Positions 18,793-36,461 of a stretch of 64,000 bases of DNA are shown here, in pieces. The notes below the pieces were generated by a model. It was not told where the DNA came from. It worked only from the letters and a program-made list of their open reading frames with translations, and searched no databases. How positions within the stretch are numbered: position 1 is the first letter of the stretch; each line of letters starts with the position of its first letter. A program made the translations under genes and the position numbers. The DNA comes from Gammaproteobacteria bacterium (GTDB lineage Bacteria; Pseudomonadota; Gammaproteobacteria; UBA6429; Thiohalophilaceae): the NCBI GenBank assembly GCA_016194635.1, contig JACQBC010000001.1, forward strand, positions 1-64,000, in the 5' to 3' direction.

Positions 18793-18978
18793 TTAACTTT
18801 GCTGTGAGTCTTTCTGCTCGTTTTTGATACGTTCGTAAATTTCTTCACGGTGAACCGATACCTCTTTAGGCGCGTTAACGCCTATCCGCACCTGGTTACC
18901 CTTGACTCCCAATACAGTGACCGTCACGTCGTCACCTATCATGAGCGTTTCTCCGACACGGCGGGTTAGAATCAGCAT
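18793..18978 (-). CDS. csrA: Carbon storage regulator CsrA (RsmA)
   Basis: CsrA is a dimeric RNA-binding protein that recognises ANGGA motifs in hairpin loops of mRNA leaders and changes translation or stability. It often controls motility, biofilm and carbon flow. The 61-residue product starts [18 protein letters not shown] and includes the RNA-contact region [18 protein letters not shown] with Arg in HREEIY. Genomic position after lysC and ahead of tRNA-Ser is standard. A likely CsrA-sequestering RNA is encoded at about 32783-32972. Confidence 0.98.
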
Positions 18979-29858: not shown

Positions 29859-32768
29859 ATGACCGCAACTGTTGTATCGATCCCCTTTGATACACCGCCC
29901 CTGGCGGCACTGGCGGCCCAGCTGTTAGCCCGGGTTAACTCGCCCACCGAACTCCTGCAGCACACCGTTGTTTTACCCGAACCCCACGCCGCCGCGGCAT
30001 TACGTCAACAGTTGCTGCAACAAGCGGTGCGACGGCAGTGGCCAGCGCTGCTCGGCCCCCACATATACCCCCTGGAACATTGGCTGCGCGGGTTTTATCC
30101 CAATGATCGTCCCGTCGGTAGCGAACACGATCGCATTATTATTTTGGTAGAAGCCCTGCTACAACACCCTCAGCTGGTCGGGCAGGCCAATGTGTGGAAC
30201 TTAGCCGAAACGCTATTACAGTTATTCGATGAGTTATCGCTCAATCACATTCCGGTGGCGACCGATCGGCGCGGGTTCACGCAACAGCTCGCGCGTTATT
30301 ACGGTTTGCGCCGCGACAGTTTAGCCGGGCTGACCTTAGAAGCAGAATTAATTCAACAATTGTGGTTGGCCTGGCACACACAACTTCACGCCGCGCGGCT
30401 AAACGATACTAGCGCCGCCCGCGTCTTTGCCTATTCCACTAGTCCCACGGCATTGTCGGCCCAAACAACCCTGCATTTGGTGGGCATACACGCCAGCAGC
30501 CGCGCCGAGCAACGTTGGTTGCAAGCCATGTTGCAACGGTCCAATGTTGTGTTATGGGTACACGGGCATCCCTACCCGTCCGCGCCAACAAATATGATTA
30601 ACCAAGCACTGCAGGCATGGAGCGAACCTGTGGGGCTAGCCCTCCCTGAACCACCTGCCATATCCCCCTATCAACACACCTTGGCCAATATATTTGATCC
30701 CCAACAGACCACCCTCGCACTTCGCGCGCAGCAACACAAAAACCATTTTCCCACCAGCCCGATACAGCCACGGCTGCAAACCTTCTGCGCCCAAGACGCC
30801 GAACAGGAAGCGCGTGCGATTGATTTACAAGTTCGACTATGGCTGTTAGAAGGTAAACGGCGCATCGCCATTGTCACCGAGAACCGGCGCTTGGCGCGGC
30901 GGGTGCGCGCATTATTGGAACGCGCCGATATTCCGCTGCACGATTCAGCGGGTTGGGCCTTATCCACGACCCGCGCCGCGGCCGCCTTAGAAGCCTTGTT
31001 GCAATGTATCGAGGAAGATTTTGCCCACCTGCCGCTATTAGATTTATTCAAATCATCCTTTATTTTTTCCGACCGAATCGACGCCGAGGTAAAAAATGCC
31101 GCCTACCGCTTGGAACGCGACATCATTGCCCACGATAATATCAGCCGTGGCCTACGCCGTTACCGACACTACATCCGCGACCGCAGTGAACGTCTCAAGC
31201 ACTTGTGGCCGGAGCAACCTTCGTTATTAGATGATCTGCTCGCCCAACTCGAAACCAGCACGCAGCCGTTATTAACGCTATTAAAGGGCCAATATCCTGC
31301 GGCCACGTATTTTCAACGGCTCAGTGCCGGAATGCAGCAATTGGGTATGTCGCCCGCGCTACAAGCCGACGCCGCGGGTCAGCAATTATTACAATTGATC
31401 GACACCCTGCACCAGGTCGCCACCCAACACTCGATTAATATTCACTGGTTGGATTTTCGTGCCTGGTTAGGCCGGCAACTGGAAAGCGTCTATTTCCGCC
31501 CCGCGGATAATGGCGGCCCCGTGCAGTTATTCACCCTCGCCCAAGCGCAGTTGCAAGACTTCGATGCGCTTATCCTCGCCGGCGCCGAACAAGAATACCT
31601 GGCGGGGCACAGCCATGCAGCACCGTTTTTTAACGCCACGGTGCGCCGCGAATTAGGGTTACGCACTCCGCAACAGGTGCAACAAACCGACCTGCTGCAA
31701 TTTTACCGCGTGTTACACAGCGCCCCACAGCTGCTCATCAGTTACCGACGCGAACAACACGGCGAGTCAATTGTAAAAAGCCCCTGGGTTGAAGCCATTG
31801 AAAGTTTCCATTGCATCGCCTACGGCAGTGATTTACAACACCCGGGGTTGGCCTTGTGGTTGCTACAGCCGCATCACGCGGTAATGCGTTGCGATAGTCC
31901 ACTGCTTGCGCCGCAACAGATGGCCCCCTTGCCTCGCGTGCCTGAAAAACTGATTCCCAAAAGCATCAGTTATTCTGATTTTCAGCAACTGGTGAATTGT
32001 CCCTACCAGTTTTTTGCGGCGCGTTGCTTAGGGTTATCGCCTCCCGAGGAAGTACGTCTAGCACTGTCCAAACGCGAATACGGTGAACGGGTGCACCAAT
32101 GCCTACAAGCCTTTCATACGCGGGTCGAGCCGTTACCCGGTCCCGTGGGTGAACACCTCACCCCCGCCAATAGAAACCGTGCCATCAGGCTGTTACAACA
32201 GATCAGTGAGCAGGTGTTCGCGCAGGATCTGCGCGATAATTTTACCCATCGTGGTTGGTATTACCGTTGGCTTGGCTGTATCCCGGCGTATGTCGATTGG
32301 CAGATTGAGCGTGAGCAGCAGTGGCGCGTCGACGCCATTGAACTCAAATTACAATCGCAGTTTAATCCTGCGATAACCTTGCGAGGCCGTATCGATCGCA
32401 TCGACGCCCAGGCCAATGCCTTGGCGATTATCGATTACAAAAGCGGCACCCCGCCGAGTAAACGCGAGGTATTGGCCGGTGAAGAAATCCAATTGCCCTT
32501 CTACGCACTTTTGTTATCAGCCACAACCGCTTTAACCCAGGGGGAATACCTCAAACTTGATACCACGGTGAAATCCGAGTCACTCCTGGATGCAGCAGCC
32601 CTGTCCAAACTCGCACAACAACTCGCCACGCAGATCACCGCTAGTTTCGAGGCCATGCAACACGGCAGTCCGCTACCCGCCCATCCGAATGAGCCTACCT
32701 GCCGTTATTGCACGATGGAGGCCCTCTGCCGCCGCCAATATTGGGAAACCGATCCAACGGCAGAATAA
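29859..32768 (+). CDS. AddB-like nuclease / probable DNA repair protein
   Basis: A 969-residue protein of the AddB/RexB-like group often annotated as probable DNA repair protein (TIGR03623-type). It has an inactivated helicase-like N-terminal part, and a C-terminal PD-(D/E)XK nuclease with LRGRIDRIDAQANALAIIDYKSGTPP (catalytic Asp and Lys in IIDYKSG) and EEIQLPFYALLL. Cysteines in NCPYQFFAARCLG and in CRYCTMEALCRR could hold an iron-sulfur cluster, as in AddB. It pairs with the following AddA-like gene across a 312-base gap. I infer a double-strand-break end-processing complex; RecBCD is not in the window. Confidence 0.85.
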   Translation: MTATVVSIPFDTPPLAALAAQLLARVNSPTELLQHTVVLPEPHAAAALRQQLLQQAVRRQWPALLGPHIYPLEHWLRGFYPNDRPVGSEHDRIIILVEALLQHPQLVGQANVWNLAETLLQLFDELSLNHIPVATDRRGFTQQLARYYGLRRDSLAGLTLEAELIQQLWLAWHTQLHAARLNDTSAARVFAYSTSPTALSAQTTLHLVGIHASSRAEQRWLQAMLQRSNVVLWVHGHPYPSAPTNMINQALQAWSEPVGLALPEPPAISPYQHTLANIFDPQQTTLALRAQQHKNHFPTSPIQPRLQTFCAQDAEQEARAIDLQVRLWLLEGKRRIAIVTENRRLARRVRALLERADIPLHDSAGWALSTTRAAAALEALLQCIEEDFAHLPLLDLFKSSFIFSDRIDAEVKNAAYRLERDIIAHDNISRGLRRYRHYIRDRSERLKHLWPEQPSLLDDLLAQLETSTQPLLTLLKGQYPAATYFQRLSAGMQQLGMSPALQADAAGQQLLQLIDTLHQVATQHSINIHWLDFRAWLGRQLESVYFRPADNGGPVQLFTLAQAQLQDFDALILAGAEQEYLAGHSHAAPFFNATVRRELGLRTPQQVQQTDLLQFYRVLHSAPQLLISYRREQHGESIVKSPWVEAIESFHCIAYGSDLQHPGLALWLLQPHHAVMRCDSPLLAPQQMAPLPRVPEKLIPKSISYSDFQQLVNCPYQFFAARCLGLSPPEEVRLALSKREYGERVHQCLQAFHTRVEPLPGPVGEHLTPANRNRAIRLLQQISEQVFAQDLRDNFTHRGWYYRWLGCIPAYVDWQIEREQQWRVDAIELKLQSQFNPAITLRGRIDRIDAQANALAIIDYKSGTPPSKREVLAGEEIQLPFYALLLSATTALTQGEYLKLDTTVKSESLLDAAALSKLAQQLATQITASFEAMQHGSPLPAHPNEPTCRYCTMEALCRRQYWETDPTAE

Positions 32769-32782
32769 ACCGCCCTGCACTC

Positions 32783-32972
32783 CGCCGGGCAAAAAAAAGC
32801 GACCCGGTGGGTCGCTGTTGAGTAGTTCCCTTCAGGCCATCCTGCCTGTCTATGTATCCACACAGGTTGTACCACTGTTTCCGTTCGGCTTCCTGCCGCT
32901 GTTTGGATATCCATGGTGGCTTCCTGTCAGGCTGTCCTGCCTGTTACACCTTTCCCTGTGCAATAATTCAGT
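32783..32972 (-). ncRNA. CsrB/RsmZ-like CsrA-sequestering small RNA
   Basis: On the minus strand about 190 bases hold nine GGA motifs, and at least three sit in the loops of short hairpins: CAGGC-AGGACA-GCCTG (within 32927-32944), CGGC-AGGAA-GCCG (about 32885-32897) and CAGGC-AGGATG-GCCTG (within 32832-32849). This is the architecture of CsrB, CsrC, RsmY and RsmZ, which titrate CsrA. The transcript ends at a strong terminator with eight U (32791-32815). A -10-like TATGCT lies at 32979-32984; the -35 region is poor, as expected for a GacA/UvrY-activated promoter. The 5' end is an estimate. Confidence 0.78.
32791..32815 (-). terminator. Rho-independent terminator of the minus-strand RNA
   Basis: On the minus strand, stem GCGACCC/GGGTCGC (32799-32805 with 32809-32815) with a three-base loop is followed by eight T residues (32791-32798). 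On the plus strand there is no T-run after the stem, so the terminator serves leftward transcription, which implies a minus-strand transcript from the addB-addA gap. Confidence 0.85.
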
Positions 32973-32978
32973 CGGCGT

Positions 32979-33008
32979 AGCATACCTGTTCGCGCTAGAA
33001 TGTTCTGT
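32979..33008 (-). promoter_or_regulatory. Probable promoter of the CsrB/RsmZ-like RNA
   Basis: On the minus strand a TATGCT -10 (32979-32984) with no good -35 (bases near 33002-33007 read CAGAAC). Further upstream, around 33015-33035, is an imperfect palindrome TGTTAC...GTTCACA that could be a degenerate GacA/UvrY site (consensus TGTAAG-N6-CTTACA); this match is weak. Confidence 0.4.
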
Positions 33009-33080
33009 GAACATTTGTAACAAAATACAGAGAAAAAATGTGATCACTTCGCAGAATTACACTTTATTTACCTTTGACTA

Positions 33081-36000
33081 ATGGCGACTGCTGTTATACA
33101 CCCATTCGCGCCCTACCTTACCGTGGCCGCTTCAGCGGGCACGGGTAAGACGCATCTTTTAATTCAACGTATTTTGCACTTGTTGCTCGTAGGCCATGAC
33201 CCGGCGGGAATTCTAGCGATCACCTTCACTCGCAAGGCGGCGGCTGAAATGCAAACGCGCTTGCAACAGCAATTACGGGCGTTGGCCTTGGCCGATAGCA
33301 CCACCTTGGATACCACTCTCGAAGGATTAGGCATTGAACCTACTTCGGTTAAGCGACAGCTGGCACGTGGCCTGTTTGAGACGCTGTTACATTCTACAGG
33401 ACGCGTCAACACCTCGACGTTTCACAGCTTTTGCCAGAATTTATTGCGCCGTTTTCCCTTGGAGGCCGACGTCCCCCCAGGATTTGAATTAATAGAACGC
33501 CTAGGGCCCTTGTACGACCAAGCCTGGCAAGCACTTACCTTACAGATGACAACCCAACCCGACACCCCCATCGCCCAGGCCATGGATGTGTTATTGCACA
33601 CCTTGGGTTACCCAGCGACCCACGATTATTTGAATGAATTTCTACATAAACGCAGCGATTGGTGGGCCCTGGCTGCGGAACACGCAAACCCGGTAGAAAT
33701 AACGGCACAACGGCTGCAACAGCAACTCCAGGTATCCCCTGGGCAAAATCTAGTTGCGGATTTTCTAGGAGACAGCACCCAGCGCCGCTACTTAAACGAA
33801 TTCGCCCAGCTACTGCACACCCACCGCACCGCAACCAATCAACAACACGCGGAAATCATCGCCCACGGCTTGGCGGAACTTGAGCCTAGTGCGGCGACAC
33901 TGGAGAAATTACTGCCGGTATTCTTCACCCAAAAACTCCAACCCCTCAAACGTAAATCCAGCACAGCGCAACAACAATCACTTGGGGTGGACGGCGAACG
34001 GCGTTTTCTGGAACTACACAACCATTTTTGCGAATCCTGCGTGAACCTATTGCGCGATCAACACGCGCAGCAGACATACAGCCTCTCCCACGCCTGGATG
34101 GTTTGCGGCGAACAGTACTTGCGACATTTCCAACGCATCAAACGCGAATTGCGCGTATTGGATTTTAGCGATCTGGAATGGAAAACCTACCAACTGCTCT
34201 GTCGCAGCGACAATGCACACTGGGTACAATATAAACTCGATGCCCGGATCGAGCATATTCTGGTGGATGAGTTCCAAGACACCAACCCCACCCAGTGGCA
34301 ACTGTTGTTACCCTTGTTAGAGGAGATTTCCGCGAGCGATAACACCGGTCGTGAGCGCAGCGTCTTATTAGTAGGTGATAGCAAACAATCCATCTATCGT
34401 TTTCGTCGCGCCGAGCCACGGCTATTTGATACAGCCAGTGCATGGCTACAACAACGTTTAAACGCGCGCCATAGCCAGTTAACCACCTCATGGCGATCCT
34501 CACCGGCGATTATAAGTTTTGTTAATCGTTTGTTCAGCACCGCTCCCCTGCATGAACAATTAAGCAACTTCATTCCCCACCAGACCGTGCACACTGATCT
34601 ATGGGGCAGGGTGATACTGTTACCGTTAGTACAAAAACCCCCCGAGGTTAAGTTGGCACCAGCCTCAGGCCGCAATCTGCTCACCACCCCGCGCCACACC
34701 CCGCGACCCAGTGTTTATTACCGCGAGGGCCAACAACTCGCCACGGCGATTCAAACGCTTATTGCAAATGCCACGCCCGTCGTGGTTGGCAAGCAAACGC
34801 GGGCCGCGAGCTACAGCGATATCATGATTTTATGCCGCCGCCGTACCCATATCGGCGACTATGAACGCGCTTTGCGCGAGGCAGGAATACCGTACATCGG
34901 CAATGAACGCGGCACCTTGTTAGACAGCCTGGAGATCAAAGATCTGGTGAATCTCCTGCAGTGGTTGATCACCCCGTTTGATAATCTCGCCTTGGCCGGC
35001 ATCTTGCGCTCACCCTTGTTTGCCGCCAGTGATGAGGATTTGCTGCACTTGTGTGGTAAAGGGGATTGGTTCGCGCGGTTGCAACAGCTCAGCGACTTAG
35101 TGGATAACTCACCCTTACAACGGGCCGCGAAGTTATTACCGCAGTGGTTGGCCTTAACCCGCATCTACCCGGTGCATGATCTGCTGGATAAAATCTACAG
35201 CGAAGCCAATGTGCTGGCGCGTTTTACCCAGGCCGCGCCACCGCACTTGCGTGCGCGGGTACAGGCCAATCTCAGCCGTTTTTTAGAGTTGGCCCTGGAA
35301 GTCGATAGCGGCCGTTATCCGAGTTTAACGCGTTTTATTCAGTGGTTACAGATAGTGCAGCAACAACCGGACGAGGCACCGGACCAACCCGCCAGCACAC
35401 TGCACCATGAGCGTGTGCAACTCCTAACCATTCACGCCGCCAAGGGTTTGGAGGCACCGATTATTTTTATCGCTGACACAACCCATGAACTCGATGAAAA
35501 AAATACCACCCAGGTCATCGTCGATTGGCCGTTTAACGAACAACGGCCGCAGATTCTTTTTCTCCACCCCAATAGCCCGTACCCAAATCATTACAGCGCT
35601 AAATTACTTGACCGTAATCAAGGGTTGGAATTACGCGAAACAGTTAATCTATTGTATGTCGCCGTTACCCGCGCACGGCAATACCTTTACTTCAGCGGTG
35701 TCGCCGGTAAGGCTCTAAACTCCGATTCTATTCCTGGCTGGTATGGTGCTGTGTGCCAGTGTTATCACCTCGGCGATAGTATTATGCAAACCGAGGTTTG
35801 TGTAGAACATCACGCTACTGCTCCACTGTTAACCCCCCGCACGGCAACCCCGAGCTCTGATCCCCCTGTTGCGCTTGATCCGCGCCTACGTGAAGTGTTT
35901 AAGCCAACGCAGCGGCGGCGTGAAATTGCCCCCAGCAACAGCGTCGTATACAACACCAGCCTCGATAGCGATGCACCAGGTCAGCTGCGCGGCTTGCTTA

Positions 36001-36461
36001 TCCATGCGATGTTACAGCAGCGGCTCGAACAAGTAGATTTGCCGATCAAACACTTTCGTCTGCCCATACCCCACAGCGTGGCCGAGGGATTGCTGCACGC
36101 CTGTTGGAATGAAGTCAGCCGGGTAATGCTCGAACCAACGTTACAATTTATATTCGACCCACGTCAGTATCAATCGGCGTATAATGAGGCCCCGGTAATG
36201 TATTACTCCGATGACGTGCTGGTGCACGGGGTCGTCGATCGTATCGTCATCTCAGCCGAGGCAATTTATGTGATCGATTACAAAACCCAGCGCTTACTAA
36301 ATCCCGACGCCATGTTACAGCTCGCTGCGCACTATATGCCGCAGTTGGCTTATTACACCCAGGCGGCACGCCACCTCTGGCCGCACCACCCCATTCTCCC
36401 CGGTATCGTATTCACCGCGTGCCCAACCTGGTGGCCGGTAAATCTTCCCGCACTGGCTTGA
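33081..36461 (+). CDS. AddA-like UvrD-family helicase/exonuclease
   Basis: A 1126-residue superfamily 1A helicase with a C-terminal nuclease, AddA/RecB-like. Walker A is AASAGTGKTHLL, motif Ia ITFTRKAAAEM, Walker B ILVDEFQDTNPTQW, motif III VGDSKQSIYRFRRAE, motif V LTIHAAKGLEAPIIF, motif VI LLYVAVTRARQYLY. The C-terminal nuclease motif is VVDRIVISAEAIYVIDYKTQRLL. Together with the AddB-like protein it probably processes broken DNA ends. The ATG at 33081 has a weak ribosome binding site and its leader overlaps the upstream part of the minus-strand RNA region. Confidence 0.9.
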   Translation: MATAVIHPFAPYLTVAASAGTGKTHLLIQRILHLLLVGHDPAGILAITFTRKAAAEMQTRLQQQLRALALADSTTLDTTLEGLGIEPTSVKRQLARGLFETLLHSTGRVNTSTFHSFCQNLLRRFPLEADVPPGFELIERLGPLYDQAWQALTLQMTTQPDTPIAQAMDVLLHTLGYPATHDYLNEFLHKRSDWWALAAEHANPVEITAQRLQQQLQVSPGQNLVADFLGDSTQRRYLNEFAQLLHTHRTATNQQHAEIIAHGLAELEPSAATLEKLLPVFFTQKLQPLKRKSSTAQQQSLGVDGERRFLELHNHFCESCVNLLRDQHAQQTYSLSHAWMVCGEQYLRHFQRIKRELRVLDFSDLEWKTYQLLCRSDNAHWVQYKLDARIEHILVDEFQDTNPTQWQLLLPLLEEISASDNTGRERSVLLVGDSKQSIYRFRRAEPRLFDTASAWLQQRLNARHSQLTTSWRSSPAIISFVNRLFSTAPLHEQLSNFIPHQTVHTDLWGRVILLPLVQKPPEVKLAPASGRNLLTTPRHTPRPSVYYREGQQLATAIQTLIANATPVVVGKQTRAASYSDIMILCRRRTHIGDYERALREAGIPYIGNERGTLLDSLEIKDLVNLLQWLITPFDNLALAGILRSPLFAASDEDLLHLCGKGDWFARLQQLSDLVDNSPLQRAAKLLPQWLALTRIYPVHDLLDKIYSEANVLARFTQAAPPHLRARVQANLSRFLELALEVDSGRYPSLTRFIQWLQIVQQQPDEAPDQPASTLHHERVQLLTIHAAKGLEAPIIFIADTTHELDEKNTTQVIVDWPFNEQRPQILFLHPNSPYPNHYSAKLLDRNQGLELRETVNLLYVAVTRARQYLYFSGVAGKALNSDSIPGWYGAVCQCYHLGDSIMQTEVCVEHHATAPLLTPRTATPSSDPPVALDPRLREVFKPTQRRREIAPSNSVVYNTSLDSDAPGQLRGLLIHAMLQQRLEQVDLPIKHFRLPIPHSVAEGLLHACWNEVSRVMLEPTLQFIFDPRQYQSAYNEAPVMYYSDDVLVHGVVDRIVISAEAIYVIDYKTQRLLNPDAMLQLAAHYMPQLAYYTQAARHLWPHHPILPGIVFTACPTWWPVNLPALA

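Follow-up and report, generated by a model that had tools for sequence, protein, structure and literature searches.

The gap between the genes addB and addA in the window (the whole stretch of 64,000 nucleotides analysed here) in all likelihood holds, on the minus strand, an independent gene for a trans-acting CsrA-sequestering small RNA of about 180 nt, which would be read leftward from a promoter by addA to an intrinsic terminator. The gene, its structure, conservation and position are established from the DNA sequence, as are csrA and a UvrY/GacA orthologue in its genome. It is very probably a known kind of RNA (CsrB/RsmZ), new in a family where Rfam misses it. Once the promoter just upstream of addA is on, the RNA would accumulate; three to four GGA hairpin loops and several single-stranded GGA would bind CsrA dimers, and sequestration of CsrA would free the mRNAs that it represses. 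From the behaviour of CsrB and RsmZ we infer that the RNA binds and titrates CsrA.

Locus and RNA features

The RNA gene is placed at 32790-32972 on the minus strand; the model match covers 32960-32790, and the 5' end at about 32972 is deduced from a -10-like box. Its neighbours on the plus strand are addB (29859-32768), encoding a PD-(D/E)XK nuclease and convergent with the RNA gene, and addA (33081-36461), encoding a helicase-nuclease and divergent from it. By analogy with CsrB and RsmZ the gene is presumably transcribed.

The initial annotation had described nine GGA motifs on the minus strand of this gap, three AGGA in loops on stems of 4-5 bp, a left-facing terminator with eight T and no protein gene on the minus strand, and the whole of this observation held. 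Nine GGA are present in the minus strand of 32789-32960, a number reached by 5 of 300 dinucleotide shuffles of the RNA stretch and by 0.06% of all 170-position stretches on both strands of the 64-kb window, the RNA itself counted. The terminator (32791-32816, minus strand) has an 8-bp stem with six GC pairs, a loop of 3 and eight T, and is the sole one found between 32600 and 33200, where 0.3 are expected. The minus strand of the addB-addA gap contains no open reading frame of at least 100 aa. On the plus strand a frame of 163 aa (32590-33081) overlaps the gap and the end of addB, its stop lying at the addA start (TAATG). No reading frame of the RNA region is open across all 30 homologues compared; a coding reading was rejected, as 15 of the 30 have some open frame but on differing strands and in differing frames.

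Folding of the minus strand, proposed earlier as a check, gave a minimum free energy (MFE) of -56.2 kcal/mol (z=-2.84; none of 200 shuffles equally stable), with three GGA in the hairpin loops AGGACA, AGGAA and AGGAUG on stems of 4-5 bp; 5 of 300 dinucleotide shuffles also place three GGA in MFE hairpin loops. Mean unpairedness of the GGA in the RNA's own fold is 0.62. All helices lie on the minus strand. Hairpin 1, CAC-(AGGGAAAG)-GTG with a loop GGA (32947-32960), is a helix of the consensus, as is the outer helix of ACAG (32902-32899) with CUGU (32865-32862) around the hairpin CGGC-AGGAA-GCCG (32886-32898); hairpin 1 and the outer helix are unformed in the window RNA's own MFE structure. Hairpin 2, CAGGC-AGGACA-GCCUG (32928-32943), and the hairpin CAGGC-AGGAUG-GCCUG (32833-32848) both occur in the MFE structure.

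Homologues and structure conservation

A blastn search of 58 relatives found clear homologues. A covariance model (R1) was built from an alignment of 11 sequences, the window included, and a second one (R2) from 30 matches. R1 scores the window RNA, one of its own training sequences, at 153.8 bits (E=1.5e-40). At E up to 0.01 it matches 36 of 40 family genomes, 35 of them at 42 bits or more with one clear copy each; the 36th (G009) is weak and looks like a terminator after a gene. As 11 of the 35 matching genomes trained R1, the independent successes are 24 of the 29 others. If only genomes with completeness of 90% or more and contamination of no more than 5% are counted, R1 matches 20 of 22 and misses both genomes of genus g7.

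A clear homologue is missing in five of the 40 genomes, including these two g7 genomes (95-99% complete). When the five misses and near-misses were searched again with R2, G021 yielded a match of 29.7 bits whose meaning is uncertain, and the other four yielded none that convinced; the count of 35 leaves out the weak matches in G021 and G009. csrA is present without a clear RNA in G007 (g7), G003 and G009, and the RNA is present without a csrA hit in G011, G029 and G035, assemblies of 470-540 contigs each. Weak second R1 matches of 20-24 bits occur in G032, G002, G026 and G006, and two weak matches outside the addB-addA gap were found in loci L034 and L038. Beyond the family, 3 of 25 addA relatives (L031, L032 and L053, the last from a Thiohalomonas denitrificans MAG) match weakly in the same gap and on the same strand (E 5e-4 to 4e-3), with 6-11 GGA when 80 nt upstream are counted. 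Over 30 homologues the mean number of GGA is 8.0 (range 6-9) vs 5.3 in dinucleotide shuffles.

As judged from the alignments, the RNA structure is conserved. Among the 30 R1-aligned matches, 16 of 26 base pairs show two-sided changes vs a shuffled mean of 6.2, a count that none of 500 shuffles reaches, and 96.9% of cells are paired, a share that falls to 27-36% if partners are offset by 1-3 columns; as the fitting of this alignment used the structure, it is biased in its favour, and its rows are related. An unfitted MAFFT alignment of 11 sequences still gives two-sided changes in 7 of the 26 predicted pairs. The loop GGA of helix 1 is kept in 30 of 30 homologues on a nearly invariant stem, and that of helix 2 in 28 of 30, with two-sided changes in all five pairs. 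For helix 4 (CGGC-AGGAA-GCCG), a GGA lies within the loop interval in 29 of 30 and all four inner pairs show two-sided changes; this interval is wide and the helix is gapped or unpaired in some rows. The outer helix around it is 99% paired. Helix 5 (CAGGC-AGGAUG-GCCUG) has its loop GGA in 30 of 30 with 99% of cells paired, and the terminator helix shows two-sided changes in four of five pairs. Varying stems with fixed GGA loops are the pattern that CsrA-binding sites would be predicted to leave. The homologues, the covariation and the synteny make it next to inconceivable that the stretch is a chance G-rich intergenic sequence bearing the terminator of a neighbouring gene, even though some plain terminators are weakly scored by the model.

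Genomic position

In 27 of the 35 family homologues the upstream neighbour is addA, in divergent orientation, with addB often directly downstream. Lying beside addA in the opposite direction would suit an RNA that acts in cis on the addBA operon, as antisense or attenuator, silencing or terminating readthrough from addB to addA. We regard such a role as highly improbable: structure and GGA loops are conserved, and the RNA structure is kept where addAB is not adjacent. In five homologues (G018, G022, G011, G033 and G028; loci L101, L103 and L203-L205) dsbC lies upstream and the locus stretch has no addA or addB match; downstream, mutS is the next match in four and the contig ends in the fifth. 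In G023 a thioredoxin-TPR gene lies upstream of the RNA and mutS downstream, again with no addAB match in the locus stretch. Two of the 35 homologues are at contig ends. That the RNA stays in place without adjacent addAB argues for an independent RNA gene, and together with the terminator and the lack of a conserved reading frame it marks the locus as an independent intergenic gene.

The dsbC-side genomes span two genera, a pattern which suggests that addAB was lost or has moved, with the RNA gene staying in place.

Comparison with known RNA families

At gathering scores, Rfam finds only tRNAs and no Csr family in the whole window. In a relaxed scan of the RNA region, CsrB (RF00018) has the lowest E-value among seven listed matches, which do not include one overlapping match from the same clan with a lower score; it scores 15.5 bits (gathering score 71; E=0.037) on the minus strand at 32949-32789. 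The initial annotation had named covariance models of the Csr families as a check; that no family reached gathering qualifies its reading. RF00018 gave no match at E up to 10 when the whole genome was searched. In 20 homologous loci no Csr family falls on the RNA at gathering; at E up to 0.5 the CsrB model falls on it in 2 of 15 homologous loci, both below the gathering score of 71 (L058, 27.5 bits, E=6.5e-4; L060, 20 bits, E=0.12). In reverse, R1 matches part of E. coli csrB (E=3.4e-4; 21 kb searched). Weak matches to MicX on L082 (E=0.16 and 0.44) are far below gathering. We take the RNA's absence from the Rfam Csr families as model divergence. The scores below gathering could also speak for a structured RNA that works with a partner other than CsrA, for example by Hfq-dependent base pairing, and whose GGA loops do not serve as CsrA sites; with four conserved GGA loops, mostly covarying stems, further GGA and csrA in 35 of 40 genomes, such an RNA is very unlikely. 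The reading as a CsrB/RsmZ-type RNA, as first annotated, is supported by the covarying stems and near-invariant GGA loops of the homologues, by their occurrence as single clear copies at one locus, by csrA and UvrY/GacA, and by the sub-threshold similarity to CsrB.

Like E. coli csrB, the RNA is intergenic, has repeated GGA, some of them in loops, and a terminator, and occurs in a genome with csrA and uvrY; the model similarity is weak in both directions. It differs in size and place: csrB is 369 nt long and lies between yqcC and syd, whereas the RNA of the window's family has about 180 nt and 6-9 GGA (30 homologues) and lies, in the window, between addB and addA. The RNAs RsmY, RsmZ and RsmX of Pseudomonas, whose families we take to be RF00195 and RF00166, are similar to it in size and number of GGA. 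They share with it GGA loops on short stems, but none of them is among the matches listed at E up to 10 for this part of the window, and the RNA of the window's family lacks an enriched GacA box. For E. coli csrB 22 GGA are reported (PMC11882849). A further comparable RNA is Pf3 of Pseudoalteromonas fuliginea, a Csr sRNA of another lineage, likewise a non-model species, which has nine GGA and was found by criteria of GGA, promoter and terminator (PMC11882849). For the sRNAs of that species promoter activity was tested and presence in CsrA targetomes is reported (PMC11882849).

TwoAYGGAY (RF01731), proposed as CsrA-binding (PMC4333381), resembles the RNA in its GGA hairpins and belongs to the same Rfam clan as CsrB (CL00106). 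It differs in being dispersed in multiple copies in some relatives, whereas the window RNA is a single-copy gene; at E up to 1 no TwoAYGGAY match was found in the window genome (gathering score 43 bits). In relatives, G026 has 16 matches (seven over the cut-off) and G025 has 14 (none over) at E up to 1, a dispersal that is odd for a CsrA-titrating RNA. A candidate second RNA in G026 (L063:1873-2011) was set aside as such a dispersed element, separate from the addA-side RNA gene.

Of 369 genomes across the class, 49 have an R2 match with an E-value of 0.01 or less, including three of the window's family; these matches mix GGA-rich stretches with plain terminators and gene ends, and no prevalence is claimed outside the family. 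Sixteen of the loci were read by eye. Twelve have 6-15 GGA (80 nt upstream counted) and a terminator (L134-L138, L140-L143, L146, L150 and L159) and look Csr-like to us, candidate unannotated Csr RNAs of other gammaproteobacterial families; L139, L144, L145 and L149 look like plain terminators or ends of genes. At gathering, Rfam places no Csr family in any of the 20 loci L134-L153. More Csr RNAs of the class may thus be unannotated by Rfam. Non-model gammaproteobacteria are reported to still yield new Csr sRNAs (PMC11882849). In the available part of an earlier prediction of RsmA-binding RNAs, no organism is recognisable as the window lineage (PMC5568370). The titles and opening lines of abstracts among the matches listed from the open-licence literature contain no Csr RNA beside addA.

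Csr circuit genes

The single csrA match of the window genome lies in the window at 18793-18978 on the minus strand, where it had first been placed, and is the proposed target of the RNA. csrA was found in 35 of the 40 family genomes. Second or third, divergent CsrA-like matches under the family cut-off occur in G036, G024, G026, G013 and others.

A UvrY orthologue of the window genome, 52% identical to the E. coli protein, passes the curated UvrY/SirA/GacA cut-off (285.7 vs 280 bits). The genes that follow it, as read from their translations, we take to be those of a uracil-DNA-glycosylase-like protein, uvrC and pgsA; the order is similar to uvrY-uvrC-pgsA of E. coli. No clear BarA/GacS orthologue was found in the window genome. 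Two hybrid kinases, C23 (907 aa) and C19 (1008 aa, with an Hpt domain), were considered, and neither reaches the BarA cut-off; C19 carries a YfiR-associated sensor.

Promoter region and regulatory input

Upstream of the RNA gene lies a -10-like box, TATGCT (32979-32984, minus strand), with a poor -35; a consensus scan of the RNA locus for sigma-70 promoters found none. The dyad AATGTTC-TGT-GAACATT (32999-33015) covers the -35 region. Both box and dyad are common to the window and its congener G001 at the same distance upstream (the G001 dyad, a similar one, was read by eye), and the dyad is a possible regulator site.

Control by GacS/GacA (BarA/UvrY), with the GacA/UvrY box TGTAAGN6CTTACA, is common but not strictly defining for such sRNAs; the CRP box is TGTGAN6TCACA. 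Enrichment of GacA, LetA and CRP boxes was assessed against mononucleotide shuffles in upstream regions of up to 350 nt from 31 of the 35 homologues, G032 (too short upstream), G028, G011 and G033 being omitted; a later set covers 34 of the 35. In the 31 regions neither the GacA box (mean best match 7.90 of 12 vs 7.78 shuffled) nor the LetA box (7.97 vs 7.96) is enriched, and the UvrY variant TGTGAGN6CTTACA, which shares letters with the CRP box, is little enriched (8.13 vs 7.82). The best GacA box of the window (9 of 12) lies inside addA. G004 has one of 11 of 12 at -230, so that GacA control of single members is conceivable.

The CRP box is enriched, with a mean best match of 8.23 of 10 vs 6.84 shuffled. 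At least 9 of 10 positions within 220 nt are matched in 14 of the 31 homologues; in dinucleotide shuffles 0.21 regions on average reach this, and at most 2 in 200 rounds. The enrichment occurs only at a spacer of 6 (other spacers, 0-3 of 31) and is specific for the half-site (the other 29 permutations, at most 1 of 31). The DNA flanking the loci of 20 genomes, mostly coding, has two CRP-type sites in 193,342 positions, a rate that predicts about 0.07 for the 31 regions. Once the extra loci are added, 17 of the 34 homologues having upstream sequence carry a CRP-type site, eight of them perfect; these 17 represent 8 of 15 genera, and as relatives are phylogenetically correlated the counts are not independent. 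The sites mostly lie about 100 to 180 nt upstream of the conserved 5' end, those of G023 (-28) and G012 (-206) being off position. All five homologues on the dsbC side have a box of 9 or 10 of 10 at -146 to -177; since addA is lacking there and dsbC has the same direction, it is most likely the RNA gene that the site serves. A CRP match is present in 39 of the 40 genomes; these matches are 63-69% identical to the E. coli protein, apart from those in G011 (52%) and G030 (36%). No CRP-type site (7 of 10 or fewer) was found in the window, in G001 or in the three members of genus g6 with upstream sequence.

The -10-like box with a poor -35 that the initial annotation noted is present; as to the GacA-type activation that it implied, the GacA box is not enriched in the family and a CRP-type box is, if not in the window itself. 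These sites suggest cAMP-CRP control of the RNA in half of the homologues with upstream sequence. We put at about even the chance that the RNA is wired directly to cAMP-CRP through the conserved TGTGA-N6-TCACA, replacing or beside a GacA box, and that the window's genus has drifted to another site. In Salmonella, CRP-cAMP is reported to repress CsrC, an effect modelled through Spot 42 (PMC7591399), and in Yersinia an effect of CRP-cAMP on CsrB/CsrC is reported (PMC3523269); a link between CRP and Csr sRNAs is therefore not new in principle. Gac-independent candidates are discussed in PMC5568370.

Implications

If the CRP wiring is true, carbon or energy state would govern CsrA activity by way of the transcription of a single-copy sRNA. 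The family offers a case open to testing, a probable Csr RNA whose promoter region has a conserved CRP-type site and no enriched GacA box. The Rfam Csr models overlook this RNA and possibly more Csr RNAs elsewhere in the class, and the RNA of the addB-addA gap is a candidate for the missing half of the Csr circuit in a gammaproteobacterial family.
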